From a virus: DNA of 44,478 bases. Location: IMG/VR virus record IMGVR_UViG_3300009553_000006, positions 1 through 44,478 of that record; one strand, written 5' to 3'. The notes below the pieces were generated by a model. It was not told the DNA's origin, ran no database searches, and worked only from the letters and a program-made list of their open reading frames with translations. The position numbers and the translations under genes were made by a program. Positions 1 through 37,062 of this stretch are shown piece after piece. How positions within the stretch are numbered: the stretch's first letter is position 1; each line of letters opens with the position of its first letter.

Positions 1-123
1 CGGTGCCAGCACGGGCAACCAGAAGGTCGACCCGAGCAAGGTGCACACGCTCAGCCGCGAGTCGTTCCTGGCCCGGTACACGCCCGAGGGCGCCCTGGTC
101 GGTAACGGCACGCCGGCGACCAG
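1..123. repeat. Terminal direct repeat, left copy
   Basis: These 123 bases are identical to 44356-44478. A gene starting at 44234 runs in frame through the repeat into the reading frame that ends at 1069. This is what a circular or circularly permuted genome gives when an assembler leaves an overlap at its ends. A physical terminal repeat is possible but less likely, because the repeat falls inside a coding sequence. Unique genome length is about 44,355 bp. Confidence 0.95.
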
Positions 124-1069
124 TTTCCGCCAGCGCGCTGCGCCCAAGCCGAAGCCATCCGAGACGGGCACGCCGCTCCCGCCGCTTGCGCCGGGCGAGA
201 TGCACATGCAGGTGGTCGACGTGACGCCGGCCCAGGCCCAGGCGTGGCTCGATAACGAGGGCGCCAACCGTCGGCTCAAGAAGCGCACCGTCGAGCGCTA
301 CGCGGCGTTCATGCTGCGCGGCGAGTGGCGCATGACCGCCGAGCCAATCAAGCTCGATGCCCAGGCGAGCGTGCGCGACGGCCAACACCGCCTGGCAGCG
401 ATCGTGCTGAGCGGCATGACCGTGCCGCTGCTGGTCATTCGCGGCGTCACCGAGGATGCCTTCGACGTGATGGACACCGGCAAGGCGCGCACACCGGCCG
501 ACGTGTTGAGCATCCACGGCTACACGACCACGGTCGGCAAAGCGGCCGCGATTCGGAGCCTGATCCTGATCGAGCGGCAGGGTCACGTCAACCCGTCGAC
601 GGTTGCCGCACGCGCGCTGTATAGCGGTCCGGTCGTGCTCGCGTATGCCCAGCAGCACCCCGAGATCGAAGAGACCTACCCGCTGGCCCAGACCCTCGCG
701 GCAGCCGGCTTGCAGGGCGGACCGGGCACCTGGGCGGCAGCGCTGACCCTGCTCTGGCGGATCGACCAGGACGCCACGCGCGAGATGGTGCGCTACCTGC
801 TCAGTGGCGCTGGGATGAACGCCGGCCACCCGCTGCTGGCGCTGCGTAACCGCGCCGTCAACCGTGACGCACGCCTGTATACGCGCGGCCCGGAAGGCCG
901 CCAGGAACTCTTGGGCATGATCATCAAGGCCTGGAACGCGTGGCGTCAGGGTGAGTCGCTGACCCGCCTGACATGGCGACCCAAGGAACCGAGCCTGCCT
1001 GAGATCGACGGCGCGCCAGCCCGGCCGCTCAAGCAGATCAGGATTCCGTCACTGGAGCAGGAGGAGTGA
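1..1069 (+). CDS. ParB/Srx-fold DNA-binding or nuclease-like protein, C-terminal part
   Basis: This is the remainder of the gene that starts at 44234; the GTG at 41 is internal. It has a central VRDGQHRLAAIVLSG segment, matching the D/N-G-x-H-R signature of the ParB/sulfiredoxin fold. That is followed by VMDTGKARTPADVLSIHG and a helical C-terminal half. Phage members of this family are usually annotated as ParB-like nuclease-domain proteins; partitioning, DNA binding and ATP-dependent chemistry are all known for the fold. It sits directly after the integrase and before a SLOG-fold gene. The fold is fairly clear from the motif, but the function is open. Confidence 0.75.
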   Translation, partial: GASTGNQKVDPSKVHTLSRESFLARYTPEGALVGNGTPATSFRQRAAPKPKPSETGTPLPPLAPGEMHMQVVDVTPAQAQAWLDNEGANRRLKKRTVERYAAFMLRGEWRMTAEPIKLDAQASVRDGQHRLAAIVLSGMTVPLLVIRGVTEDAFDVMDTGKARTPADVLSIHGYTTTVGKAAAIRSLILIERQGHVNPSTVAARALYSGPVVLAYAQQHPEIEETYPLAQTLAAAGLQGGPGTWAAALTLLWRIDQDATREMVRYLLSGAGMNAGHPLLALRNRAVNRDARLYTRGPEGRQELLGMIIKAWNAWRQGESLTRLTWRPKEPSLPEIDGAPARPLKQIRIPSLEQEE

Positions 1070-25850: not shown

Positions 25851-27961
25851 CCGCCACCTGGCAGGGCGACGAAGTTCCCCGGCGGCCCGGGCACGACCGG
25901 CGCGCCGGGAATGCCGCCCGGCGGAATCCCGCCACCCCCGCCAGCGGGGGGCGGTGGCGCGAGCGGCAGGCCCTGGCCCGGACTGGGCACCGGGTTGGGC
26001 GGCATACCGCCCGGACCAGGCATCGGCGGCGCACCCGGCGTGCCACCCGGCACCCCCGTCGCACCGACCCCGGCCATCTCCTCGGGACTGGGCGCGCCGG
26101 CCTTCTGCATGCGCTCGCTCTCGATCGTGCCGACCTTCTCCAGGATCTTCTGCTTGAGCAGCGTCTGGACCTCCTGCGAGTTCTTCATGTCGTGCAGCAG
26201 CCAACTCTTCTCGACCTCGTCCGGGTTGGCGCCAGCCTCTTCGACGGCATCCTCGTAGGTGATCAACTTCAACTGCATCTTTTCGCCGATCGCCCTGATC
26301 TTGATGATCTCGTTACTAGGCGTGCTGGGTTCGAGCCGCGCCTCGTAGCGATGCACGCCCTTGAGGTCGTCCGGGCCGAGGCCGAGCCAGGTCGCCTTGG
26401 TCTGGCCGCCGATGGTCTTCTTACCCTTCTTGGCCTCGATCTCGCCCCACGCGTAGACCTTCTCGCCGATCCGCCGCTCGATCAGCCACGACTCGAAGCC
26501 GATGCGGTCGCCCAGCGCGACCTGGGCGTTGCTGACAATCGGATCCCAGCCCAGTCGCGCGAGGTACGCGGCCTGGTTGAGTGCGTAACCGGACTGGTCG
26601 CTGGCCACGACGCCCTGGATGACGCTCGGCAGCGCCCACTCCAGCATGCCCTTGATGTTGTCGATGAGCTTGTCGCTATCGACGCCGCTCCTGGGCTGGT
26701 CGATGGGCGACACGTCGAACGGGTAGAGCTTGCCCGGCTCGATCTGCTCGGCCTTCTTGCCCTCGCGCCCGTCGTTGCCGTAGGGCGTCTGGGGTAGGCC
26801 GGGGATCGAGCCCGGCGGACTGGTCTTCTTGAACGCCGGGAAGCCGGTCATGTACGCCGCGTTGCCCTGCATGGTCAGCAGCGAATCGAGCAACGGGAAC
26901 AGCCGCAGAAAGCCGAACAAAATCGAGAGCCCCGCATGCTCGGGCAGTCGTGATGCGGTGGTGATGCCGAGCGCGTGGAAGTACGGCCCCCGCAGGGACT
27001 TCAGAATCGGGTCGCCGTAGGCGTGCTTGACGACCTTGCACAGCGTGCTCTGGCCGAGCTTGCCACTCCGGTTGCGCTGGTTCGGCCCGGCCAGCAGCAC
27101 GACCTGGCACTGGTGATCCCAGCCCTCGATGCACCTGAGCGTGCTGGTGCCGGCCGAGCGCATCAGGTGGCCCCACTCGGCCCTGGCCAACTCGGTCGCG
27201 CGCGGGTCCAAACCCGACCAGGTCTTCGGGTCGACCACGTCGCCGCTACTGTTCAGTCCTGCACCGAAGCGCTCCAGAGCTTCGAGGTACGGGATCTCCT
27301 TGATCTCGAACACGCTGGTCAGCCCGTTTTCGTTCTTCGAGTAGTAGAACGTCTCGGGCGGCACGTCGGTCGTCGCGATCGGGTAGGGCAGGCGGAGTTT
27401 GTAGTCCTCGGTCTTGCTGTGATACAGGCGGTCCTGGGCGTCCTGGTCGTAGTCCTGGCTGGCGAGTTCCTTCTCCAAGTCCTTGCTGGCCAGGGTGTAA
27501 TCGCTCCAGGCGGTCTTGGCTCGCTCGACGGTTTTCAGCACACCCTCGCCCTTGACCGCGAGCGACCACAAAAAGAGCCTGAGCAACTGGCGCTTGGCCT
27601 CCTGCTCCTGCCTCTTCCAGGACGCCTCGAAGAACTGCTCCCGCAAGGTCGAGTTCTGCTGATAGACGTCGCCGAAGCCGATCGGCTTGAACATCGTGCT
27701 CATCGGGTTGACCGAGAGCGCGGCGGTGACGGTCGTCGCGATGTGGATGGCGAGCGGGCTTCTGACCTCGATGGCGGTCTTCTTGTACGCCTCGGGCACC
27801 TCGACCGGCACGTTGCCGAACAGCACCGCGTCGATGTCCTCGTAGAGTTGGTCGCGGTCGCTGAAGTTGCTCTTGAGTTGCTCGGCCACTTCGAGCGCGC
27901 CGCGCTCCATCGCGTCGGCGGCCTTTGACCCCTGCTCGAACAGCACCCCGTTTTCGCTCAC
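25847..27961 (-). CDS. Portal protein
   Basis: This 704-aa protein begins with a helical region typical of portals (LYEDIDAVLFGNVPVEVPEAYKKTAIEVRSPLAIHIATTVTAALSVNP). A stem/wing-like middle follows (YPIATTDVPPETFYYSKNENGLTSVFEIKEIPYLEALERFG), then WALPSVIQGVVASDQSGYALNQAA and a long helix region IKIRAIGEKMQLKLITYEDAVEEAGANPDEVEKSWL. The last ~90 aa are a Pro/Gly-rich tail. It lies downstream of the large terminase, the usual order, and is of a size typical for podophage portals. Confidence 0.8.
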   Translation of the reverse strand: MSENGVLFEQGSKAADAMERGALEVAEQLKSNFSDRDQLYEDIDAVLFGNVPVEVPEAYKKTAIEVRSPLAIHIATTVTAALSVNPMSTMFKPIGFGDVYQQNSTLREQFFEASWKRQEQEAKRQLLRLFLWSLAVKGEGVLKTVERAKTAWSDYTLASKDLEKELASQDYDQDAQDRLYHSKTEDYKLRLPYPIATTDVPPETFYYSKNENGLTSVFEIKEIPYLEALERFGAGLNSSGDVVDPKTWSGLDPRATELARAEWGHLMRSAGTSTLRCIEGWDHQCQVVLLAGPNQRNRSGKLGQSTLCKVVKHAYGDPILKSLRGPYFHALGITTASRLPEHAGLSILFGFLRLFPLLDSLLTMQGNAAYMTGFPAFKKTSPPGSIPGLPQTPYGNDGREGKKAEQIEPGKLYPFDVSPIDQPRSGVDSDKLIDNIKGMLEWALPSVIQGVVASDQSGYALNQAAYLARLGWDPIVSNAQVALGDRIGFESWLIERRIGEKVYAWGEIEAKKGKKTIGGQTKATWLGLGPDDLKGVHRYEARLEPSTPSNEIIKIRAIGEKMQLKLITYEDAVEEAGANPDEVEKSWLLHDMKNSQEVQTLLKQKILEKVGTIESERMQKAGAPSPEEMAGVGATGVPGGTPGAPPMPGPGGMPPNPVPSPGQGLPLAPPPPAGGGGGIPPGGIPGAPVVPGPPGNFVALPGGG

Positions 27962-28179
27962 ACCGGATCCCTCGGCTCAAGCGGTTGGATGACGCCCGTG
28001 GGGTGGCTGCGCGCTTCGTGGTAGCGGCGACTCAGGCCGCAGTAGACGGTGTGGGTGTCGAGCACGAGCACGACGTGGTCACAGAAGTCGAGGCCGCTCG
28101 GCTCGAACGGATGGTCGGGCGGGGCGACCGGGGTGGGCATATCGACGCGGATCTGATAGGTCGGGTTGTCTGGGTTCAC
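27958..28179 (-). CDS. Small hypothetical protein between terminase and portal
   Basis: This 73-aa protein overlaps both neighbours (ATGA-type). It starts MNPDNPTYQIRVDMPTPV and contains GLDFCDHVVLVLDTHTVYCGLSRRYHEA. No recognised family. A single compact beta-hairpin and helix is likely. Confidence 0.55.
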   Translation of the reverse strand: MNPDNPTYQIRVDMPTPVAPPDHPFEPSGLDFCDHVVLVLDTHTVYCGLSRRYHEARSHPTGVIQPLEPRDPV

Positions 28180-28676
28180 CGCCGCTGCTCCGTCAGGTAG
28201 AGCGTGCTCGGCAGCGCCGCGTAGATCTGCGTGCCGGCCGGCCCGTACAGGCCGAAGCCGATCCGCCCGCTGCCCGGCTGCGAGGGCACGTAGTAGGTGC
28301 CACTGGCCATCATGCCGAAATTGTTTTCAGGCGCGTCCAATGCCCCGAGGGCCTGGTCCGGATTGGCGCCATTGAGCATGATCCCCCACACGATGCGCTG
28401 GCCCTTGGTCGGGCAGCCCAGGAAGACGTTGAACTCGATGCGCACCAGCCCGCCCTGGAAAGTGGCCGTGGCCTGGACCGGCGTCTCGGTCCACACGTTG
28501 CTCGTCGGCAGGGTATACGCGACCAGGCTGGCGTAACTGCCGACACGTTCCTGGACGGTGCCGGTCGGTAACTCGACCGGACCGCCCTTGATGACCAACT
28601 TGCCGTTGTGCGTCCACAGCCCGGCCGTCTGGCGCTCGCCGCCGAGTACCCGGTCCTCGACCCCGTGTGTGGTCAT
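28176..28676 (-). CDS. Beta-rich hypothetical virion protein
   Basis: The ATG at 28676 overlaps the terminase stop (ATGA) and gives a 166-aa product. The longer upstream frame is a proline/arginine-rich shadow. The protein is beta-rich (KLVIKGGPVELPTG, QATATFQGGLVRIEFNVFLG, GSGRIGFGLYGPAGTQIYAA) and looks like a jelly-roll or sandwich fold. Position after terL and before the portal is unusual for a decoration protein. Function unknown. Confidence 0.6.
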   Translation of the reverse strand: MTTHGVEDRVLGGERQTAGLWTHNGKLVIKGGPVELPTGTVQERVGSYASLVAYTLPTSNVWTETPVQATATFQGGLVRIEFNVFLGCPTKGQRIVWGIMLNGANPDQALGALDAPENNFGMMASGTYYVPSQPGSGRIGFGLYGPAGTQIYAALPSTLYLTEQRR

Positions 28677-29989
28677 CCCCAGCGGAAGTCCTCGGCCTGG
28701 TCCGGCTCGGGCGGCTGGGCCTCGGCGCACAAGCCGTACCTGAGCGCGTCGGCGGCGTGGTCCTCGGTCTTACCGCCGTGCAAGGTATCGGCCACGTCCT
28801 CGGGGTCGAGCGAGTCCATGACCAACGTGGGGAGCGTTCGCACGAGATTGGGCGCGCGGTCCTTCATGACTACCAGACGTGGCTCGCCCGAGTCGTGCGC
28901 GAGCGCTCGCCGCACAATCGCCCAGCCCTGCTTGCGCGAGTTCATGCCCGGCACAACCGGGCGGACCCCGAGCGCGGCGTAGACGGCGGCGATGCTGGGC
29001 CGTTGCTGCTCGGTCCTCAGGTTGAACATGGACGGATCGAGCACGCGCAGCACGAGGCCTTCGTCGCCGGTGCGCTCCAGGATGTGTTCGGCCTGCTGCT
29101 CGTCCCTGAGGCCCGAGCCGTAGCTCTCGCGGTAGACGACGACCTGCCGGGTCTCGGGCGAGCGGGCGAACCACAAGCAACAAAAGGGCGCCGAGAAGCC
29201 GTAGTCGACGGCGATCCACCTGGGCCACTCGGGCGGCACGTCGAACGGCGGCACGACGTGGACCAGCGGATCCCACTCCTGGAAGTACATGCCCTGCGCG
29301 GCAACCCACATACCGAGCCGCAGGCGCTGGTACTGGTAACCACGCAGCGAGTCGAGGGTGCCGATGTAGTCCTTGCCGAACTCGGTCTGCTGACCGTCGT
29401 CCTCGAACAAGAGCGGGTTATCCTCGTGTTTCGACTCGAACAGGGTGGTCTGGCCGTCGTTGCAGCGCTGCTTGAGCCAGTGGTCGGGATACGTCGGGTT
29501 GCAGTCGGCGATGAGTTGCTGGTAGCCGAGCACGCCGTTGCGCAAGCCCCTGAGCAGCATGCCCCAGTCGTCGGCGTCGAGTTCGGTCGCTTCCTGGACG
29601 TAGATCACGTCGAACTCGGTCGAGCCAACCTTCTCCGGGTCATCCAGCCCGGAGACCATGACCCGTGCGCCATTCGGGTAGCGGTACTCCTGATCCCCGT
29701 CGTGCCACCTGACCCCCGAGGGCATAGGCAACACGCGCTGCTCGAAGGTAACCATCGCCGACTGGGTGAGCGAGTGCCTGACCTTCCTGACAATGGCCGC
29801 CCGAATAGGCACCTGCATACAGATCAGGTTGAGTTTTTCCAGGCACGCGCGTGACTTCCCGGTGCCGGCCGGCCCAGCCAGCAGCACCTCCCGATCGGTG
29901 CACCTCATCAACTCCCTGGCCGCCCCCCGAGGACGGAAGACCTTTTCCGCCGGCGCCGCCGTGTCGCCCTTCTGTATCGTCAGCGGCAT
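28673..29989 (-). CDS. terL: Terminase large subunit
   Basis: This 438-aa packaging motor has Walker A GPAGTGKS at residues 39-46, a Walker B region FDVIYVQEATE at about 126-136, and the coupling segment ADCNPTYPDHW near 161. The C-terminal RNase H-like nuclease has WIAVDYG (Asp262), VLDPSMF (~320) and DHAADALRYG (~418). Length fits the family. The ATG at 29989 has no clear Shine-Dalgarno sequence and follows a >700-bp stretch from the small subunit that holds a gene on the other strand. Confidence 0.93.
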   Translation of the reverse strand: MPLTIQKGDTAAPAEKVFRPRGAARELMRCTDREVLLAGPAGTGKSRACLEKLNLICMQVPIRAAIVRKVRHSLTQSAMVTFEQRVLPMPSGVRWHDGDQEYRYPNGARVMVSGLDDPEKVGSTEFDVIYVQEATELDADDWGMLLRGLRNGVLGYQQLIADCNPTYPDHWLKQRCNDGQTTLFESKHEDNPLLFEDDGQQTEFGKDYIGTLDSLRGYQYQRLRLGMWVAAQGMYFQEWDPLVHVVPPFDVPPEWPRWIAVDYGFSAPFCCLWFARSPETRQVVVYRESYGSGLRDEQQAEHILERTGDEGLVLRVLDPSMFNLRTEQQRPSIAAVYAALGVRPVVPGMNSRKQGWAIVRRALAHDSGEPRLVVMKDRAPNLVRTLPTLVMDSLDPEDVADTLHGGKTEDHAADALRYGLCAEAQPPEPDQAEDFRWG

Positions 29990-30025
29990 AAGACACCATT
30001 TTTGGCCGGCCGGGCATGTTGTGAC

Positions 30026-30038
30026 TTGACAACGTCAA
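30026..30038. promoter_or_regulatory. TTGAC-N3-GTCAA palindrome, candidate promoter -35/operator
   Basis: TTGAC at 30026-30030 and GTCAA at 30034-30038 form a perfect hyphenated palindrome. TTGACA (30026-30031) is also a consensus -35 hexamer for rightward transcription; TATGGA at 30051 is only a weak -10 at a 19-bp spacing. It lies 44 bp before the small + strand gene at 30082 and 37 bp behind the terL start codon, so it could serve either direction. Confidence 0.4.
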
Positions 30039-30081
30039 AAGGCTTGGTCGTATGGATGGGAACCATCAGGAGGGCGGTCCC

Positions 30082-30336
30082 ATGATCAGGGGGGTGGCTG
30101 CGGCGCCGTCGAGCAGGGCAGACCAGATTCGGCTGCCGCTTGGCTTTCACCATCGCCCCGGCCGGCACGTGCGGTGCAACTTCTGCGGTCGCGAGTGGCA
30201 CATCCCGGAGGCCATGCGGACTCTGAGCCGGAACGCCCGAGCCGCGCTGCGCGAACACTGGTTCCTGTGCGCACCCCGCGCGATCAAACGCATGAGCATG
30301 CCACGTCGCCTGCGGCACTGGGTTCCGGTTTCCTGA
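30082..30336 (+). CDS. Small Zn-finger-like protein, + strand, between the terminase genes
   Basis: The ATG at 30082 follows a strong AGGAGGGCGG site. The 84-aa product is basic. It contains HVRCNFCGREWHIPE and, about 20 residues on, REHWFLC, giving a C-x2-C ... H-x3-C arrangement like a small zinc finger. It would be transcribed against the terminase operon. No other gene explains this 730-bp interval. It may be a DNA-binding regulator of the late operon; this is inference. Confidence 0.5.
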   Translation: MIRGVAAAPSSRADQIRLPLGFHHRPGRHVRCNFCGREWHIPEAMRTLSRNARAALREHWFLCAPRAIKRMSMPRRLRHWVPVS

Positions 30337-30721
30337 AATCCGAATCTCGTTTGGTGGGTTTCCCGCGATCTGACCTTTCGGGATTCCGGAAAACCGAAGT
30401 TCAAAAGTTGAGTTGCGCGGGAACTGAGCTATAGATATTTCGCGCACCCGGGCCGGCGGGGGATGGTGGTACCCGTGGGCGGCCCCGCGCGTGTGCCGTG
30501 GAACAGGCCCGCCTGCGCAGTCCTCTGACCGCCGGCAAGGCTCCCGACTCCCCACATAGACTCCCCTGGCCAGGCAGAGGGCCCTCACACGAGTAGGCTT
30601 CCGACACTGCTGCCCACAGTGCAGGGTGGTGTCCCGAGTCGGGCCGGGGTGCTCAACGCTCAACTTTCACGCTCTGGGCCCAGCCACTCGCGAGGCGTAG
30701 GGTTGTGCGTTGCGGGCCCTG
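30337..30721. other. Non-coding interval between the terminase genes (385 bp)
   Basis: No convincing gene is seen. A long minus-strand open frame here has shadow-like composition. An imperfect inverted repeat is present: GGTTTCCTGAAATCCGAA around 30327-30344 pairs with TTCGGGATTCCGGAAAACC around 30379-30397, partly over the end of the + strand gene. It could be a transcription-end structure. Because it adjoins the terminase genes, a packaging site is also possible but unproven. Confidence 0.4.
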
Positions 30722-31309
30722 TCACTGGCGTACGGCGCCTAGAACCTCTGCAGGATCGAAGCCTTGAATCGACTTGATGACCTGCGACACATTCAAGCCG
30801 ACGGTCTCTCTGTACTTGTCCGGCGCTCTAGCCCTGAGGAGCAAGGTCAGGAGAGCGTCTGAATACTCAAGTTTGGTGTCCTGGCCGACTGGCCGGCCGT
30901 GGTAATACGTCGTCCGCTTCTGGGACGTGCCCTGCACGCCACGTCGGAAGGCTTCGGCTTCGAGGACTTCGGTTGCCCTCGCTTCGGCTTGGTGGAATTG
31001 AAGGGCAAACTGCTCGTCATGCTCTAGCCACGAGTAGATTGTCTGCCGGCTTGCTATGCCGGCTTGCTCGCATGCCCAGCCGATGTTGCCCCGCTCAGCC
31101 ATCGCCTCTAAGAAGCGTTGGCGCTTCGACTTCCTGACCTTGGGAATGTTCGCGTCGCCACCGGTGTGCCAATGCTTGACCACCGGCAACGGCGTTGGTT
31201 CCGCCGGGGCCGGCTTGGGACGGACCGGTTTTAGGCCTCCCCCGGTTTGTCTTCGCGACGCCACCGCCGCCAGTCGATCCTCAACGCTCAGCGCGTCTTC
31301 CGATGCCAT
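30722..31309 (-). CDS. terS: Terminase small subunit
   Basis: ATG 31309 (behind GGGGTGA) gives 195 aa; a GTG at 31315 is also in frame. After a disordered P-rich start it has KVRKSKRQRFLEAMAERGNIGWACEQAGIASRQTIYSWL, a helix-turn-helix of the kind that small terminases use to bind the packaging site. FALQFHQAEARATEVLEAEAFRRGVQG follows, and then DALLTLLLRARAPDKYRE. This combination is a classic TerS signature. It is the first gene of the late operon; the large subunit is >730 bp downstream. Confidence 0.88.
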   Translation of the reverse strand: MASEDALSVEDRLAAVASRRQTGGGLKPVRPKPAPAEPTPLPVVKHWHTGGDANIPKVRKSKRQRFLEAMAERGNIGWACEQAGIASRQTIYSWLEHDEQFALQFHQAEARATEVLEAEAFRRGVQGTSQKRTTYYHGRPVGQDTKLEYSDALLTLLLRARAPDKYRETVGLNVSQVIKSIQGFDPAEVLGAVRQ

Positions 31310-31846
31310 TTTCACCCCGTTACAGGTTTGTGATATCGAGATTGACTGCGAGTCTCGCTGAGATTGGGCCGTCGGTCTATGCGCCGGCCGGGTCGGGATT
31401 GAACCATTGATTTATCTAAACCAATGGTCTATAACTCCTGTGTCGGTTCCGCAAGGGGCCAGGCACCTGAACAATCGCAGAACGCGGGAAGGCCCAGACA
31501 ACGCCGTGCCGGCCCTGCTACTCACCCGAGTGTCGAGACCTAGCGCTCTCCACTCGCACACTAGTAGCCGGGCACCGGGCGCAGTGCCAGACCAAACGGA
31601 CTCCGGACGGAGTGAACGGACTGGCCAGACGCAACACGAATCCGAATGGGAGATACGCCGTAGCAAGTAGACACAGTGCAAGCGCGCAACGTGACACCAG
31701 TCGCGACCGGCCAATGATCGGGCCGCCGTTCCATTTATGACGTATGCATTCTGACCAGAGCAGGTGAAAGAATCCGGGTGCTCTCGACGGAACACGGATA
31801 CAGAGTGGATAAACGAGCGGAACGCTAGACGTTGAGCGCATATGCA
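31310..31846. other. Divergent control region between late and ribozyme operons
   Basis: This is a 540-bp stretch with lower GC than its flanks. The late operon leaves leftward at 31309 and the ribozyme operon rightward at 31847. It holds the palindrome GCGAG-T-CTCGC (31348-31358) and the 26-nt hairpin at 31403-31428. Minus-strand frames here have no convincing composition. I could not pick out confident -35/-10 pairs in either direction. Confidence 0.5.
31403..31428 (-). promoter_or_regulatory. 11-bp hairpin in the terS leader
   Basis: On the minus strand the 26 nt fold as an 11-bp stem with one G-U pair and a four-base AGAT loop. The outer arms are ACCATTG and CAATGGT. It stands 94 bp before the terS start. 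No T-run follows, so it is not an intrinsic terminator; an operator or an RNA-level control hairpin is more likely. The adjacent GGTTCAATCCC resembles a tRNA T-arm, but no stem supports a tRNA. Confidence 0.5.
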
Positions 31847-31908
31847 CAGTCGAAACACCGGATCCGCCGGTGTCTGCCGGGAGTGGTCACCCGGCACTGA
31901 TGAGACTG
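31847..31908 (+). ncRNA. Type II hammerhead ribozyme 1
   Basis: The order CAGTC-GAAA ... GTC|T ... CTGATGA-GACTG is a hammerhead opened at stem II. Stem II is CAGTC/GACTG. Stem III is ACACCGG/CCGGTGT with loop ATCCG. The cleavage triplet GTC ends at 31874. Stem I is TGCCGGG/CCCGGCA with loop AGTGGTCA. All core bases (CUGAUGA, GAA, A-U at 15.1-16.1, C17) are present. Loop I TGGTCA is complementary to TGACCA at 31907-31912, a possible tertiary contact. It precedes the first gene of the operon by 22 nt. Confidence 0.9.
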
Positions 31909-31930
31909 ACCAAACGGAGAGAGATTCCTA

Positions 31931-32170
31931 ATGGAAAACCTGTTTTTCGTCAAGCCACTCGCGTTTGACACCACCACCGGCCCAGTATTCGACGATGCAG
32001 GCCGCGAGCTATTCGGCGTCTTTAGTTTCGAGGACGGTCCGGACGAGACGCCATATTGTTTCTTCAGCGGCGCGCGCTTCGAGGCCAACACTCAAGCGCG
32101 CGAGTGGAACGATACCATTGCGCGCGGCCAGACGGTCAGGCTACCCGGCGGAATCCTCCGCTACTTCTAA
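31931..32170 (+). CDS. Small hypothetical protein, ribozyme operon gene 1
   Basis: This 79-aa protein begins MENLFFVKPLAFDTTTGPVFDD behind GGAGAGAGATTCCTA. It is acidic and aromatic-rich, with VFSFEDGPDETPYCFFSGARFEANTQA and a basic C-terminal GGILRYF. Its TAA stop directly abuts hammerhead 2 with no gap. No known family is recognised. Confidence 0.7.
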   Translation: MENLFFVKPLAFDTTTGPVFDDAGRELFGVFSFEDGPDETPYCFFSGARFEANTQAREWNDTIARGQTVRLPGGILRYF

Positions 32171-32220
32171 GGTCGAAACGCTCCGGAGCGTCCACACGTA
32201 TGGCGTGTGCTGACGAGACC
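32171..32220 (+). ncRNA. Type II hammerhead ribozyme 2
   Basis: Stem II is GGTC/GACC. Stem III is ACGCT/AGCGT with loop CCGG. The cleavage triplet GTC ends at 32192. Stem I is CACACG/CGTGTG with loop TATGG. The core reads CTGACGA, allowed because position 7 of CUGANGA is variable; GAAA is intact. It is 50 nt, the most compact copy. It begins at the base after the stop codon of gene 1 and ends 30 nt before the next ATG. Confidence 0.9.
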
Positions 32221-32250
32221 GTACCTATCACACATTGGGGAGAGATACCA

Positions 32251-32562
32251 ATGAACAACATTCGAGTGATTACCAATAATGTGCCGCGCCCGGTGGTGGA
32301 CGCGTGGGAACTGACGCCGGCTGAGCGTGTCGAGTTCGATTACCTCGACTGGGCCGCGATTGAGGCCGGCTCCGATAGCGCCTCATTCTTCCGCTACCGT
32401 GGTCAGTTGTATGACCTAGGCGAGTTCATGCGCTGGTCAAGCGCGCCGGAGCCGGAACTACGCAAATGGGACGGCTACGCGTCCGATTCATTCTTTAGCG
32501 CTACGGTGGTGCGCTATGTCGACGATGGCGAGTCGGTTGTGGTCGGCACCGTCATTAGTTAG
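32251..32562 (+). CDS. Conserved-looking small phage/plasmid protein, ribozyme operon gene 2
   Basis: This 103-aa protein starts after GGGGAGAGATACCA. It contains RVITNNVPRPVVDAWELTPAERVEFDYLDW, then SASFFRYRGQLYDLGEFMRW, and later KWDGYASDSFFSATVVRYVDD. I recognise this pattern from small proteins of phages and plasmids of GC-rich bacteria, often among antirestriction-type accessory genes, but no activity is established to my knowledge. The TAG stop overlaps the first base of hammerhead 3. Confidence 0.7.
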   Translation: MNNIRVITNNVPRPVVDAWELTPAERVEFDYLDWAAIEAGSDSASFFRYRGQLYDLGEFMRWSSAPEPELRKWDGYASDSFFSATVVRYVDDGESVVVGTVIS

Positions 32563-32617
32563 GTCGAAACACTCCACTCCGGAGTGTCTGCAGGTATGTG
32601 CCTGCACTGATGAGACC
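32562..32617 (+). ncRNA. Type II hammerhead ribozyme 3
   Basis: Stem II is GGTC/GACC. Stem III is ACACTCC/GGAGTGT with loop ACTCC. The cleavage triplet GTC ends at 32588. Stem I is TGCAGG/CCTGCA with loop TATGTG. The core CTGATGA and GAAA are complete. Its first base is the last base of the stop codon of gene 2. Confidence 0.9.
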
Positions 32618-32652
32618 ATCAGCCACTACCAAACCATTGGGGAGAGATACCA

Positions 32653-32913
32653 ATGTCGAAGCACTACCACGTCATTAGCGGCCTGCAGGGTGGCTACATT
32701 CCGAATAGCAACGAACAATGGGGCACGCGTGCCGGCGCCGTCCGGGGTGCGCAACGTCACCTCGATGATTACCGCGACGCGGGCGAACGGATCATTGGCT
32801 CGGCTAAGGCCGGCGTCTGGCAGATGCGCGAATCCGAATCACTCCCCGGCACGTTCTGGGACTACATTGAAATCACCGGCCCGTGCTTCGACGATTGCGA
32901 GGAGTGGGACTAA
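32653..32913 (+). CDS. Small hypothetical protein, ribozyme operon gene 3
   Basis: This 86-aa protein follows GGGGAGAGATACCA. MSKHYHVISGLQGGYIPNSNE is followed by a charged middle part (RGAQRHLDDYRDAGERIIG) and an acidic end with CFDDCEEWD. The YHVISGLQGGYIPNSN-type start is seen in small phage and plasmid proteins of unknown role. Its TAA overlaps the next ATG by one base. Confidence 0.65.
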   Translation: MSKHYHVISGLQGGYIPNSNEQWGTRAGAVRGAQRHLDDYRDAGERIIGSAKAGVWQMRESESLPGTFWDYIEITGPCFDDCEEWD

Positions 32914-33206
32914 TGGCCAGGCCGGTCGACGCGAACGCGATTCCGTTCGAGCCGTTCGAGTATGAGATTGGTCCGCGCGTGGTCGGCGGCCGGTATCACT
33001 CTGGCTATTGGAATCAAGAGTACGAAGTCCTCGAAATTCGGACCAACGTGCCGGTATGGGGTTGGGAAATTTCGGTCCGTTGGCGTGGAGGACGCAACAT
33101 CACCCATCACTCCACGGCGTGGAATTACCGCCGCGACCGGGTGTTGAAGTCAAAAGCCCAGCCGGCGCTCTATTTCAAACCGGACACCATCCTACGCGGC
33201 GAGTAG
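32913..33206 (+). CDS. Small hypothetical protein, ribozyme operon gene 4
   Basis: This 97-aa protein starts in TAATG, coupled to gene 3. It is beta-rich (NQEYEVLEIRTNVPVWGWEISVRWRGGRNITHHSTAWN) and ends in a basic stretch. It could be a small SH3-like or antirestriction-type fold, but there is no decisive motif. It stops three bases before hammerhead 4. Confidence 0.65.
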   Translation: MARPVDANAIPFEPFEYEIGPRVVGGRYHSGYWNQEYEVLEIRTNVPVWGWEISVRWRGGRNITHHSTAWNYRRDRVLKSKAQPALYFKPDTILRGE

Positions 33207-33209
33207 CAA

Positions 33210-33261
33210 GGTCGAAACCGGGTCCGCCCGGTCTGCGCGTATGGCGCGCACTGATGAGACC
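33210..33261 (+). ncRNA. Type II hammerhead ribozyme 4
   Basis: Stem II is GGTC/GACC. Stem III is ACCGGG/CCCGGT with loop TCCG. The cleavage triplet GTC ends at 33233. Stem I is TGCGCG/CGCGCA with loop TATGG. The core CTGATGA and GAAA are complete. It lies between gene 4 (stop at 33206) and the ribosome-binding cassette of gene 5. Confidence 0.92.
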
Positions 33262-33294
33262 ATCAGCCACTATCAACATTGGGGAGAGATACCA

Positions 33295-33582
33295 ATGAAC
33301 ACCGTTATCAATGGCGTGACCATCACGCCGGCGCAATTGCGCTCACTCAAGCGTATGAGCACTGACGAATTGCTCGAAGCGGCTAATACGCTCGTGGGCG
33401 GCTATGGCGTGGAGTACATACGCCACCGCTCAGACACCATGCGCGAACGGCACGGCCTCGAATACGTCAACGTCGGCAGCACGTACGCCACCACGTTTGT
33501 GTGGGACCACCACCGTGAGCGGCTGGTCATCGGCTCGTGGGGTGACATCGTCGAGCGCGCCCCGGAAAGCCGGTACGCGTGA
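33295..33582 (+). CDS. Small hypothetical protein, ribozyme operon gene 5
   Basis: This 95-aa protein starts after GGGGAGAGATACCA. NGVTITPAQLRSLKRMSTDELLEAANTLVGGYGVEYIR looks like two short helices. A beta part follows (LEYVNVGSTYATTFVWDHHRERLVIGSWGD). The family is not recognised, though the VEYVNxGDTYxxTxxxD-like pattern is common in small accessory proteins. Its stop overlaps the next GTG start (GTGA). Confidence 0.65.
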   Translation: MNTVINGVTITPAQLRSLKRMSTDELLEAANTLVGGYGVEYIRHRSDTMRERHGLEYVNVGSTYATTFVWDHHRERLVIGSWGDIVERAPESRYA

Positions 33583-33878
33583 AAACGGCTCACCACTACC
33601 TCGTGCAACGCGTGTTCCAAGATCACTCGCAACATTTCATCGCCACGGTCGGCGACCTGCCCAGCGCGCAGGCTATCGCGTGCCGCAAGTCCAAAACAGC
33701 GCGGCCGACAACCGAGATCCGCATTTGTGGCGTCGGCGAGGACCGGCGCCTCTTGTGGCTCACGGTCTACCGCAATGGCCAGCCGTACTACACGGCTGAG
33801 CCGCGTCCGGGCGACCCGTCCTCTATGGGCTTTCAGCAGCGAACCTATCACACGACTAAGGTCGAAACTCCGGAGTGA
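33579..33878 (+). CDS. Small hypothetical protein, ribozyme operon gene 6; 3' end inside hammerhead 5
   Basis: This 99-aa protein (GTG start, coupled to gene 5) is basic and beta-rich (HHYLVQRVFQDHSQHFIATVGDL, DRRLLWLTVYRNGQPYYTAE). Its last seven codons (KVETPE plus stop) are read from the 5' side of hammerhead 5, and the TGA at 33876 lies in the stem III loop. Translation of this gene must therefore unfold the ribozyme. Function unknown. Confidence 0.65.
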   Translation: MKTAHHYLVQRVFQDHSQHFIATVGDLPSAQAIACRKSKTARPTTEIRICGVGEDRRLLWLTVYRNGQPYYTAEPRPGDPSSMGFQQRTYHTTKVETPE

Positions 33879-33916
33879 GTCCGGAGTCCGCACGTAAGGC
33901 GTGCGCCGATGAGACC
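33860..33916 (+). ncRNA. Hammerhead ribozyme 5, with U4C core change
   Basis: Stem II is GGTC/GACC. Stem III is ACTCCGG/CCGGAGT with loop AGTGAGT. The GTC triplet ends at 33888. Stem I is CGCACG/CGTGCG with loop TAAGG. The conserved CUGAUGA reads CCGATGA, a U-to-C change at core position 4 (33907). All stems are intact, so the fold should persist, but cleavage is expected to be weak or absent. It overlaps the end of gene 6. Confidence 0.8.
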
Positions 33917-33949
33917 ATCAGACCACCTACACATTGGGGAGAGATACCA

Positions 33950-34255
33950 ATGACCGATCTATCGACCGTGCTGCCGATCAGCACCACTCCGTACCGCGTC
34001 ATCCGCACGCGCTTCGTCGGGCCGACCGATTTTCGCGGCTCGCGCATCATCGCCGACGCCGGCGATAGCACCTCGCGCGTCACGCTGGGCTATGACCACG
34101 CGCTGGCACGCGACGAAAACCACGTCGCCGGCGCGCGCGCCGTGGTCGACAAAATGGGCTGGACGCCGGCCCAAGGCCAGTTCACAGCGCTGGTCGGCGG
34201 CGATTACGACGGCGCCTACTACTTCGTCTGGCAGCCACAAGAGGCGCGCGACTAG
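33950..34255 (+). CDS. Small hypothetical protein, ribozyme operon gene 7
   Basis: This 101-aa protein starts after GGGGAGAGATACCA. It contains RVIRTRFVGPTDFRGSRIIADAGDSTSRVTLGYDHAL, followed by a helix (ENHVAGARAVVDKMGW) and GGDYDGAYYFVWQ. The pattern FVGPTDxRGSRIxA is shared by small phage and plasmid proteins of unknown function. The stop overlaps the next GTG start. Confidence 0.7.
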   Translation: MTDLSTVLPISTTPYRVIRTRFVGPTDFRGSRIIADAGDSTSRVTLGYDHALARDENHVAGARAVVDKMGWTPAQGQFTALVGGDYDGAYYFVWQPQEARD

Positions 34256-34485
34256 TGCCGCGTATCTCGAAGGATGCGCCGCTCCGGCCCTGCCAGTGGC
34301 CGGACTACGGGCGCGCATGCGGCAAGCGCTCGATGTACCTCGTGCTCGTGCCGTTTGGCTCGTTTTTCCCGTACTGCGGCTACCACATGGCGCGCGCCAT
34401 CACGGCCGCCTGCGACGCCGAGTACCACCGCCGCCCGGCCGGCCAACGTGAGCCGGTCCAAGTTCTACCAATTGATCAGCGCTAA
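34255..34485 (+). CDS. Small Cys-rich protein, ribozyme operon gene 8
   Basis: GTG at 34255 overlaps the preceding TAG. The 76-aa product has PCQWPDYGRACGKRS and, about 20 residues on, FFPYCGYH. This C ... C ... C-x2-H arrangement suggests a zinc site. No known family. Confidence 0.55.
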   Translation: MPRISKDAPLRPCQWPDYGRACGKRSMYLVLVPFGSFFPYCGYHMARAITAACDAEYHRRPAGQREPVQVLPIDQR

Positions 34486-34500
34486 GGAGAGAGATTCCTC

Positions 34501-34749
34501 ATGGCAAGTCCACTCGTTTTCAAGGTCTACAACGGCGAGCGCGAACACGTCGCCTCGACACGCTACGCGGAGGATGCCGCCTTTATCGTCGGCCACTGCG
34601 CGCTCGGCACCGTCAGGGTCGATGGGCGCATCGTGTGGCGCGAGAGCCTCGAACCCACGTCGGCCAGCGAGTCGTACGACTACGCAGCGTCGATCATGCG
34701 CGAACGCCGCCGCGAGCGCTACGCGCGCTGGCTGGAGGCACGCGCATGA
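34501..34749 (+). CDS. Small hypothetical protein, ribozyme operon gene 9
   Basis: This 82-aa protein follows GGAGAGAGATTCCTC, the same leader type as gene 1 and the integrase. FKVYNGEREHVASTRYAEDAAFIVGHCALGTVRVDGRIVWRE has a strand-helix-strand look. An arginine-rich C-terminal helix follows. This YxGxxxVASxxYxEDAAxxV pattern occurs in small accessory proteins; no function is known to me. Confidence 0.65.
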   Translation: MASPLVFKVYNGEREHVASTRYAEDAAFIVGHCALGTVRVDGRIVWRESLEPTSASESYDYAASIMRERRRERYARWLEARA

Positions 34750-34970
34750 CCACCCTCGAAGAACGGGTGGCGCGCCTCGAACAGCGCGCCCTTGAACTCG
34801 AACGCATCGAACAGCGCCTGGGCCGCGTCGAGGATGCCGTGCTTGGCCTGCGCTCGGACATGAACGGCCTACGCACCGACCTGCGAGTTGCCTTCGAGCG
34901 TATCTTCGTCTCGCTCGATGCATTGAACCGCAAACCAGGTTTCCGCTGGCCGTGGGAGCGCACGTCATGA
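34746..34970 (+). CDS. Short coiled-coil protein A
   Basis: This 74-aa protein starts in ATGA. It is nearly all coiled coil: TTLEERVARLEQRALELERIEQRLGRVEDAV then SDMNGLRTDLRVAFERIF, ending RWPWERTS. Its start is paralogous to the gene at 35161 (MTLEPRVTRLE). It may oligomerise or act as an anchor. Confidence 0.65.
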   Translation: MTTLEERVARLEQRALELERIEQRLGRVEDAVLGLRSDMNGLRTDLRVAFERIFVSLDALNRKPGFRWPWERTS

Positions 34971-35164
34971 CCAGTCTCGAAGCACTCGACTATGCGCTGC
35001 GCCTGGTCGACCAGCGGCGGCACGACTTCAGACGGCGCGCTGAGCGCCTGAGCAGTAGCTCGCACGCCTCACAACGCGAGTACCAGCACGTCATCGAGCA
35101 GGCCGACGCCGCGCACGCGACCCTCGCGGCACTGCGCACGTGCATCGAAGAGGTCCAGTCATGA
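34967..35164 (+). CDS. Short helical protein B
   Basis: This 65-aa protein starts in ATGA. It is helical: SLEALDYALRLVDQRRHDFRRRAERLSSSSHASQREYQHVIEQADAAHATLAAL. It is rich in Arg/His/Gln. It sits between two coiled-coil genes and probably works with them. No family recognised. Confidence 0.55.
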   Translation: MTSLEALDYALRLVDQRRHDFRRRAERLSSSSHASQREYQHVIEQADAAHATLAALRTCIEEVQS

Positions 35165-35340
35165 CCCTCGAACCCCGCGTGACGCGCCTCGAAACGGCGT
35201 TTGTGCGCATCGCCGAGACTCTCGACGAACACACCGGCCTGTTGCGCGACATCGTCGCCCTGCTCAACCAGCAGGGCAGCCAACTCGAACGCATCGAGCG
35301 GGCTATCCGCGAGCGTGGCCAGAACGGCAGCCAGCCATGA
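35161..35340 (+). CDS. Short coiled-coil protein C
   Basis: This 59-aa protein starts in ATGA. It is a heptad-rich helix: MTLEPRVTRLETAFVRIAETLDEH, then LLRDIVALLNQQGSQLERIERAI. It is a likely paralogue of the gene at 34746. Function unknown. Confidence 0.6.
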   Translation: MTLEPRVTRLETAFVRIAETLDEHTGLLRDIVALLNQQGSQLERIERAIRERGQNGSQP

Positions 35341-35537
35341 AACCGGAAGACCTGCGCGCCTGGCGCACTGACCGCGAACTCTCGCAAATCGACCTGGCCA
35401 CGCTGCTCGGCGTGACCAACCAGACCGTTTATCGCTGGGAGGCCGGCTCGCGTAGCGTGCCCGCCTTCCTCGAACTGGCCTTGCGCTACCTCGAAAGCCA
35501 GCCGCTGCTGTACCGCGAGCCGGTCATCGCCGAGTGA
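35337..35537 (+). CDS. Cro/XRE-type DNA-binding protein
   Basis: This 66-aa protein starts in ATGA. It has a canonical XRE helix-turn-helix: DLRAWRTDRELSQIDLATLLGVTNQTVYRWEAG, followed by SVPAFLELALRYLES. It is about the size of a Cro-type regulator or an XRE antitoxin. As the last gene of the ribozyme operon it may feed back on phage promoters. The companion repressor is not obvious. Confidence 0.8.
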   Translation: MKPEDLRAWRTDRELSQIDLATLLGVTNQTVYRWEAGSRSVPAFLELALRYLESQPLLYREPVIAE

Positions 35538-35552
35538 CCGGCTCTTGACCGT

Positions 35553-35652
35553 AATCCCGGACAATCCGGACAATCCGGACAAGAGGACTGTCCGGCCGTC
35601 CGGAACCACACCCAATCCCCGCAGGGTGTGGTTTCCGGACAAACATTTATGT
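35553..35652. terminator. Hairpin and repeat cluster between convergent operons
   Basis: The + strand operon ends at 35537 and the minus helicase gene at 35653. Between them are three near-identical AATCC(C)GGAC repeats at 35553-35580. A long hairpin follows at 35598-35640, with arms GTCCGGAACCACACCC and GGGTGTGGTT-T-CCGGAC, 16 bp with one bulged T. Next comes a small AAACAT-TT-ATGTTT palindrome at 35641-35654. A bidirectional terminator is the natural reading; the TCCGGAC repeats could also bind a protein. Confidence 0.6.
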
Positions 35653-37062
35653 TTAAGGGACTGTCCGGTGTCCGGAATCGTTTTGGGGGTCAAAATCGAC
35701 TTCGGACAGGAGGTCTCGGAAGGGTGTCCAGAGGCCCTCTGAGGCCCTTTCCGGCCCGACCTGTCCGGAAACCGGCGAGTAGCGCAGCGGCCGCTTGCCG
35801 CCCTTGGTTGCCAGGCCGCGCAGCACCAGCCGGTCGAGCATGCGTCGCACGCTATCCTCGCGGCGCGCGTCCGGCTGGCGCTTGTCGACGCGCCACGCCA
35901 CCTCACGTGGGGTCTGGTTGATTGCCTCGGCCAGACTGGCCAGGATGCGCTCGGTGTCGGTCGCGTCCTCGGCTTCGGCGCCGGACGGCTCGCCGGGCAA
36001 CGGGCGAGTCACGATTGAGATTTCACGCGGGCGGTGCATGATTTCGGTCGCGAAACCCGGGCGCTCTTTGGGCCCGACGCTGTTTTTGGTGTGGTGCCAA
36101 TTGACCACGTGCCGCCCGACATCCACGGCCTCTTCGTCGGTGACCAGGCTCCATTGGTTGCGCAGGTATTCGAGCTTGCGCTCGGCGCCGCGTGCCTTGA
36201 TTGGCACGGCCGCGCGCTTGCCGTCGCGCCGCCCGGCCTGGTGTTCGGCACCGGTCACGTGGTCGAGCGCGAGCACCGTCACCGGCGGCAGGCTGCCCAG
36301 GCATTCCTCCATTTCGAGCGCCACCGCTTCCCAGGTCATGTGCTCGCCCGTCGCCCCGCCGGCGGCCGCCACCGCATCGAGCACGAGCAGGCCGACGCCC
36401 TCGCGGTCGATCGCTTCGGAGATCGCTTCGACCTGGTTGCGCAGGCGGTAGCCGTGCATGTCGCGCCACATCATGTACGGCAGCGAGCGCACGCCCAGGT
36501 TGGCGCACACGTCGAGCACGGTCCGCGTGAACGATTCGAAATCGTCCTCCCAGTCCAGGTACAGGGGCACACCCTGCTCCATCTCGCGCTCGCAGAACCG
36601 AAAGCCGGCCGCGTAGTACGCACAAATCGCCTTAGCCAGCGTGCTCTTGCCGGTCGACGAGGCGCCCAGCCAGCAGTTCGGCTTGCCCTTGAGCAGCAGC
36701 CCCTGGCACAACCAGGCTGGCTCGGGCGGCCGTTCGACGTGTCCCTGTAAACGCAGGAACGGACGCCCGTTGCGGTGTGAAGCGAGCACAGATTCGCACG
36801 CCTCACGCAACAAGCGAGCCAGTAACTTGGGGTCGCCGATGCCATCGCTGGTCAGTTCGTCGATCAAGTCCTTGACGTTGCCGCGCGTAGTGCCGGCCAG
36901 CAGGTTGATTCGGCGCGTGATCAGGTGCCCGCCGTCACGCCGCGTTACGACCACTTCCCAGGTGCTCTGGTCACGCTCCGGGTGAGAGAACTTGAGCACG
37001 AGCGGCGCTTCGGACGGACTGAAGTGATAGCCCATGCCCACTCGGTGAAAGCGCTCGCTCAT
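35653..37062 (-). CDS. RepA/DnaB-like RecA-fold ATPase, putative replicative helicase
   Basis: ATG 37062 gives 469 aa and overlaps the upstream stop (ATGA). Walker A is GASSTGKS at residues 133-140. YLDWEDDFESF follows, then a Walker B strand GLLVLDAVAAAGG near 215-225, and LALDHVTG with a QSHA/NWHHTKN region, the layout of RepA-type hexameric helicases (AAA_25-like). The C-terminal ~100 aa look like a winged helix (DTERILASLAEAINQTPREVAWRVDKRQPDARREDSVRRMLDRLVLRGLATKGG). It is the last gene of the early operon. It probably drives phage DNA replication, as helicase or initiator. Confidence 0.8.
   Translation of the reverse strand: MSERFHRVGMGYHFSPSEAPLVLKFSHPERDQSTWEVVVTRRDGGHLITRRINLLAGTTRGNVKDLIDELTSDGIGDPKLLARLLREACESVLASHRNGRPFLRLQGHVERPPEPAWLCQGLLLKGKPNCWLGASSTGKSTLAKAICAYYAAGFRFCEREMEQGVPLYLDWEDDFESFTRTVLDVCANLGVRSLPYMMWRDMHGYRLRNQVEAISEAIDREGVGLLVLDAVAAAGGATGEHMTWEAVALEMEECLGSLPPVTVLALDHVTGAEHQAGRRDGKRAAVPIKARGAERKLEYLRNQWSLVTDEEAVDVGRHVVNWHHTKNSVGPKERPGFATEIMHRPREISIVTRPLPGEPSGAEAEDATDTERILASLAEAINQTPREVAWRVDKRQPDARREDSVRRMLDRLVLRGLATKGGKRPLRYSPVSGQVGPERASEGLWTPFRDLLSEVDFDPQNDSGHRTVP

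Follow-up and report, generated by a model that had tools for sequence, protein, structure and literature searches.

Five type II hammerhead ribozyme motifs in a phage operon of small genes, two of them with a candidate lock hairpin

The window, a 44,478-base IMG/VR virus record, carries terminase and tail fibre genes on its minus strand. Small genes form a plus-strand operon (31931-35537) that runs divergently from the terminase side, and five type II hammerhead motifs stand at its head (Table 1). Comparison of genes A-G with Pfam and PHROGs gave nothing informative on function, and the genes between the ribozymes are not related to each other. Genes C and D, and likewise E and F, overlap by a few bases and therefore look translationally coupled. 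The part of the operon beyond gene G has no further hammerheads, and its last gene encodes an HTH protein. Relatives of gene G lie close to the genome start in several T7-like Pseudomonas phages, which suggests early expression. A promoter search 5' of copy 1 returned one weak consensus match only.

Table 1. Hammerheads, genes, ribosome-binding cassettes and candidate lock hairpins of the operon
Feature	Position	Strand	Description
Hammerhead copy 1	31847-31908	+	type II; stem II CAGUC/GACUG, stem III 7 bp, stem I 7 bp; predicted cleavage after 31874
Gene A	31931-32170	+	79 aa; no family match
Hammerhead copy 2	32171-32220	+	stem II GGUC/GACC, core CUGACGA; predicted cleavage after 32192
RBS cassette	32233-32253	+	CATTGGGGAGAGATACCAATG; SD in loop, start codon in stem of a 6-bp hairpin
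Gene B	32251-32562	+	103 aa; phrog_1845 (function unknown)
Hammerhead copy 3	32562-32617	+	predicted cleavage after 32588
Candidate lock hairpin, copy 3	32607-32622	+	CUGAUG (32607-32612) with CAUCAG (32617-32622)
RBS cassette	32635-32655	+	CATTGGGGAGAGATACCAATG
Gene C	32653-32913	+	86 aa; overlaps start of gene D, dicistronic unit
Gene D	32913-33206	+	97 aa
Hammerhead copy 4	33210-33261	+	predicted cleavage after 33233
Candidate lock hairpin, copy 4	33251-33266	+	CUGAUG (33251-33256) with CAUCAG (33261-33266)
RBS cassette	33277-33297	+	CATTGGGGAGAGATACCAATG
Gene E	33295-33582	+	95 aa; overlaps gene F, dicistronic unit
Gene F	33579-33878	+	99 aa; GTG start; enters hammerhead copy 5
Hammerhead copy 5	33860-33916	+	U4C core CCGAUGA (33906-33912); predicted cleavage after 33888
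RBS cassette	33932-33952	+	CATTGGGGAGAGATACCAATG
Gene G	33950-34255	+	101 aa; phrog_3199 (function unknown)
Remaining operon	34255-35537	+	six small genes (34255, 34501, 34746, 34967, 35161, 35337)

Both strands were scanned with a descriptor for type II hammerheads comprising GAAA, stem III, NUH, stem I, CUGANGA and stem II. The strict core gave four copies and a relaxed core the fifth, with none elsewhere in the window and none on the opposite strand. In 60 dinucleotide-shuffled versions of the window, the mean number of matches was 0 for the strict core and 0.017 for the relaxed one. All five copies have the three stems, I and III closed by loops and II open, the NUH triplet between stems III and I is GUC in every one, and the hammerhead is the minimum-energy fold of each. 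The core (CUGANGA and GAAA) is complete in copies 1-4. Stem I changes on both sides across the five copies without a mismatch, in keeping with the compensated differences in stems I and III that the initial annotation of this DNA had described. The cleavage positions it gave for copies 1-4 agree with the descriptor, which adds the one in copy 5. It had also ascribed GGUC/GACC and CUGANGA to every copy; this is true of copies 2-4, but copy 1 has a different stem II and copy 5 a different core.

A covariance model built independently, from 50 hammerheads of other contigs, recovered all five copies at 44.9-69.6 bits (E 2.6e-12 to 1.9e-20) and had no further match in the window at E<=10, so that the presence of five type II hammerheads is confirmed. 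The Rfam type II model RF02276 (gathering cut-off 37), which had been proposed as a check, accepts copy 1 at 60.4 bits but leaves copies 2-4 under the cut-off at 26-35 bits and does not match copy 5 at E<=1. Its threshold also misses most copies in other arrays, found by covariance model R1. An IMG/VR contig of 5,270 bases is 100% identical over 27509-32778 and includes copies 1-3, though it may not be an independent sample. The DNA of one hammerhead copy, compared with isolated phages, gave chance-level matches only (E 0.3 or worse).

Each copy was initially placed between a stop codon and a conserved ribosome-binding cassette, and this is exactly the position of copies 2-4. Copy 2 directly adjoins the TAA of gene A (32168-32170), the TAG of gene B (32560-32562) shares the first G of copy 3 stem II, and copy 4 starts 3 nt past the TAG of gene D (33204-33206). 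The other two copies differ. Among plus-strand ORFs of at least 50 aa, the closest end before copy 1 is at 31670, and copy 1 has no CATTGG...CCAATG cassette, its ribosome-binding site being unlike those of the other copies; copy 1 is thus assigned to the operon leader. Gene F reads into copy 5, with its stop codon (33876-33878) inside the stem III loop. The U4C change of copy 5 lowers in vitro activity considerably, yet still supports viroid infection, according to Perreault et al. 2011 (PMC3088659), and copy 5 is on this ground probably weak or decaying. The gene-by-gene arrangement itself is upheld, with copies around A, B, C-D and E-F. In other phages, the cassette pattern matches three unrelated contigs, all of them without the CATTGG half and without hammerheads.

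Loop I of copy 1 (UGGU, 31884-31887) can pair with ACCA (31909-31912), and loop I of copy 2 (UAUGG) could pair with CCGUA in its tail. Such a pseudoknot between loop I and the tail is common, though not universal, in type II hammerheads. As a general feature of the surveyed subset it found little support, as pairings of at least 4 bp are not clearly above the level with shuffled tails (20% versus 16%, 152 loci).

Hammerheads of other contigs were collected from three IMG/VR pattern scans, one GTDB genome scan and other fetched loci, giving at least 541 distinct hammerheads in at least 337 loci. The search patterns fixed the core and stem II and left stems I and III free; since the survey was seeded by two stem II forms (GGUC/GACC and GGAC/GUCC), its frequencies are not representative of all type II hammerheads. 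Both stems I and III reach at least 5 bp in 126 of the 133 pattern matches listed, whereas swapping arms between sequences leaves 4% paired for stem I and 9% for stem III. Stem statistics selected by the descriptor lean towards structure; the arm-swap test, and the TCAG-offset count given below, do not.

The clustered, gene-flanking arrangement is widespread. Among the matches listed, the largest arrays have 11-12 hammerheads per contig and others 6-10, and the copies are co-oriented in 111 of 112 multi-copy loci, the strands being mixed in one. In 401 of the 541 hammerheads listed, versus a mean of 35 at random positions, an open-frame stop codon falls between -12 and +4 relative to the start of the ribozyme, and the distances peak at -2, 0 and +1. 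Downstream, an SD-preceded start lies within 90 nt in 160 of the 185 listed (26% of random positions), at a looser distance that is mostly 10-40 nt among the matches listed. The fixed distance of the ribozyme is therefore to the upstream stop codon. Being pressed onto that stop, the ribozyme would leave the upstream message almost no 3' UTR before the stem III hairpin, and a terminating ribosome would cover the GGUCGAAA strand.

A search of related phages had been suggested for synteny. The closest relatives found by terminase, contigs of 44 and 41 kb in which this protein is 71% identical, gave no hammerheads. The array is thus dispensable in this lineage and was gained or lost since the divergence from those relatives. 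Homologues of gene B occur at 23 viral loci, and hammerheads flank three of these, tightly on both sides each time. Mobility of a gene-ribozyme cassette was rejected, as 20 of the 23 contigs have no hammerhead and gene and ribozyme are hence not co-travelling. The gene B pattern agrees with an earlier remark that the identities of genes next to hammerheads are not constant.

When the RNA downstream of the cut is folded computationally, copies 3 and 4 show an extra hairpin outside the hammerhead structure. The catalytic-strand CUGAUG pairs with CAUCAG, made up of the final C of stem II plus the tail, and this lock hairpin and stem II are mutually exclusive. In copy 5 the lock tail AUCAG is present with one mismatch. 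Owing to the alternative pairing of catalytic strand and tail, the 5' ends predicted for copies 3 and 4 are more structured than the stem I hairpin of the initial annotation. Nearest-neighbour energies, in which tertiary contacts are not counted, are slightly in favour of the lock (-6.2 kcal/mol) over stem II (-4.4 kcal/mol) in uncut RNA, and all 63 downstream products modelled have stem I together with the lock as their minimum-energy fold.

The lock pairing covaries. TCAG stands directly after the position opposite N7 in 64 of the 538 full-tail hammerheads listed, and at each other offset in 0-5. CUGANG can pair with CN'UCAG in 65 of the 541 hammerheads listed (~12%), where the N7-N' pair is U-A in 54, C-G in nine and U-G in two, with no mismatches (Fisher p about 2e-9). 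These 65 sequences form 32 locus groups without common flanking DNA; the C-G form occurs in seven of the 32, three of which have both forms. Among the matches listed, all six lock pairs are found in 67 sequences, versus 2 expected with shuffled tails. Sequestration of the core was also considered for downstream products of ribozymes without a TCAG tail and rejected, since their catalytic strand shows no extra pairing in comparison with shuffled tails. Only a subset of the hammerheads thus has the lock, and with just ~12% of listed ribozymes carrying it, punctuation itself cannot depend on it. No description of the lock was found in searchable open-licence PMC text, and the covarying lock is to that extent new.

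The overall reading, in which we have considerable confidence, is that these are five cis-acting type II hammerheads in a small-gene operon of a tailed phage, which would cut one RNA into messages and have a candidate lock at copies 3 and 4. Transcript punctuation is the best-supported function. The whole operon would be transcribed as a single RNA, and each ribozyme would fold while emerging and cut at its own GUC, co-transcriptionally at copies 1-4 and perhaps at copy 5. Cleavage at copies 1-5 would split the transcript into mono-, di- and polycistronic messages for the units A, B, C-D, E-F and G onward. Hammerhead cleavage leaves a cyclic phosphate on the upstream product and a 5'-OH on the downstream product. 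Each upstream message would then terminate in the stem III hairpin, a few nucleotides past its stop codon, and carry a 2',3'-cyclic phosphate there. Each downstream message would begin with a 5'-OH at a flush stem I hairpin, behind which come a short leader and the SD. Protection of the two ends by the stem III and stem I hairpins is a reasonable prediction. At copies 3 and 4, and weakly at copy 5, departure of the GGUC strand with the upstream product may free CUGAUG to refold with CAUCAG beside stem I. The lock would in this way block religation, make cleavage irreversible and close the 5' end, placing two adjacent hairpins before the SD.

The lock looks like a structure that forms after cleavage. 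That some phage hammerheads, copies 3 and 4 among them, are one-shot RNA switches is, in our judgement, an evenly balanced proposition; here the conserved N'UCAG tail, covarying with N7, would form a lock that excludes stem II and either traps the cut product in a closed, stable 5'-OH end or shuts off uncut ribozymes after a short window. It is also possible, if rather unlikely, that the lock acts before cleavage as an off-switch, the tail taking the catalytic strand unless cutting is fast or a ribosome or protein keeps the tail open, so that the cut fraction is regulated. Folding energies agree with such a role, as the lock is predicted to be 1.5-2.9 kcal/mol more stable than stem II in the uncut RNA when tertiary contacts are left out, and so does the position of the stop codons, since terminating ribosomes at the adjoining ribozyme would disturb stem II. 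However, the last nucleotide needed for stem II comes five nucleotides ahead of the last one needed for the lock, so that cutting first is favoured, and the lock is absent from most arrays.

Other readings do without a primary role for cleavage, or put it to another use. Copies 2-5 have a common tail and RBS cassette and align with one another at 78-89% identity, and the genes between them are mutually unrelated, as would be expected if the ribozyme and RBS block were a recombination or duplication module spreading among small genes, with cleavage secondary or absent. This is improbable, because the catalytic letters are conserved and stems I and III have drifted apart by compensated changes, a pattern that requires selection acting on the folded ribozyme; the scarcity of ribozyme-flanked gene B homologues (3 of 23 contigs) argues in the same direction. 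The hammerheads could instead be inactive relics, as the U4C core of copy 5, the reading of gene F into it and the near relatives without hammerheads might indicate; copies 1-4, which retain all core letters, the GUC site and perfect stems, make this very unlikely. Least probable of all is a circle model, in which two ribozymes together excise a single-gene RNA whose ends are then joined. Ligation is possible in principle where a unit has a hammerhead at either end, and Perreault et al. consider this option, but they report that spliced or circular products were undetected (PMC3088659), and at copies 3 and 4 the lock would stop ligation.

Four intact copies and one decaying copy around units of one or two genes, together with a survey of at least 541 hammerheads, allow concrete and cheap tests of what hammerheads do, a role in prokaryotes and phages that the field calls an open question (PMC6155905). 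If true, the lock would be a natural route to one-way hammerhead cleavage and would also be of use for engineering RNA processing. Most hammerheads in arrays of this kind escape the current Rfam type II model. The array shares topology, core and cleavage site with RF02276 (Hammerhead_II). In the Rfam consensus, however, stem II is 2 bp and stem I is longer; stem II of copies 2-5 measures 4 bp, their stem-loop I spans 17-18 nt and has a G(UNANG)C-like loop, and they score below gathering.

The initial annotation knew of no described array used gene by gene, and this has to be corrected. Perreault et al. 2011 describe clustered phage hammerheads flanking single genes, with prophage clusters of Agrobacterium tumefaciens, Azorhizobium caulinodans and Clostridium scindens as examples, and propose that long phage RNAs are cut to operon or single-gene length; tandem prophage sets cleave in vitro and in E. 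coli (PMC3088659). A 2017 review notes that the motifs flank ORFs of small non-conserved proteins (PMC6155905). The present array is accordingly a further member of a described kind, likewise with co-oriented hammerheads on the coding strand around A, B, C-D and E-F, and it has five copies where survey matches listed elsewhere reach 11-12. Tight abutment on the stop codon and the covarying lock are absent from the text-searched passages of Perreault et al. 2011 (PMC3088659).

The closest functional parallel is T7 early RNA, in which five RNase III sites are cut co-transcriptionally to give mono- and dicistronic mRNAs (PMC4858673). Five cuts between genes that yield mono- and dicistronic messages are likewise predicted here from sequence, and the array would be the ribozyme counterpart of that processing. 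In T7 the cutting is done by a host enzyme, whereas here the RNA would cut itself, leaving 5'-OH and cyclic-phosphate ends.

The RBS cassette of the window has the form CATTGG-GGAGAGATA-CCAATG and recurs in three further copies, each behind a type II hammerhead. It folds as a hairpin whose loop carries the SD and whose stem includes the AUG, and could be a translational operator, or merely a recent duplication. The operon's convergent end carries a cluster of short TCCGGACAA-like repeats and their inverted copies; this cluster resembles iterons or an operator-terminator region. The phrog_5931 protein also matches ParB-like partition proteins, though weakly.

Features of the window beside the hammerheads
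Feature	Position	Strand	Remark
phrog_5931 protein	41-1069	+	family function not known; E 2.4e-65
ORF, 2038 aa	18113-24229	-	structural region
RBS cassette	32233-32253, 32635-32655, 33277-33297, 33932-33952	+	
Repeat cluster	35556-35690		

Among the matches listed, stem-loop I is 17 nt long in 162 of the 185 surveyed hammerheads, and the loop of this form is close to G(UNANG)C (U in 160/162, A and G in 124/162 each). This conserved loop has no evident Watson-Crick partner in the tail of the listed hammerheads; a tertiary contact is possible.

Five IMG/VR contigs from uncultivated phages (L114, L071, L375, L385 and L368) carry arrays of 7 to 12 hammerheads, spaced mostly at one per gene or gene pair, and most copies in these arrays do not reach the Rfam type II threshold (gathering cut-off of RF02276). 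Type II hammerheads also recur as pairs, about 360 nt apart, in gut Gastranaerophilales genomes of the GTDB set L136-L186, in which many contigs belong to Gastranaerophilales MAGs; these pairs presumably represent one prophage family.
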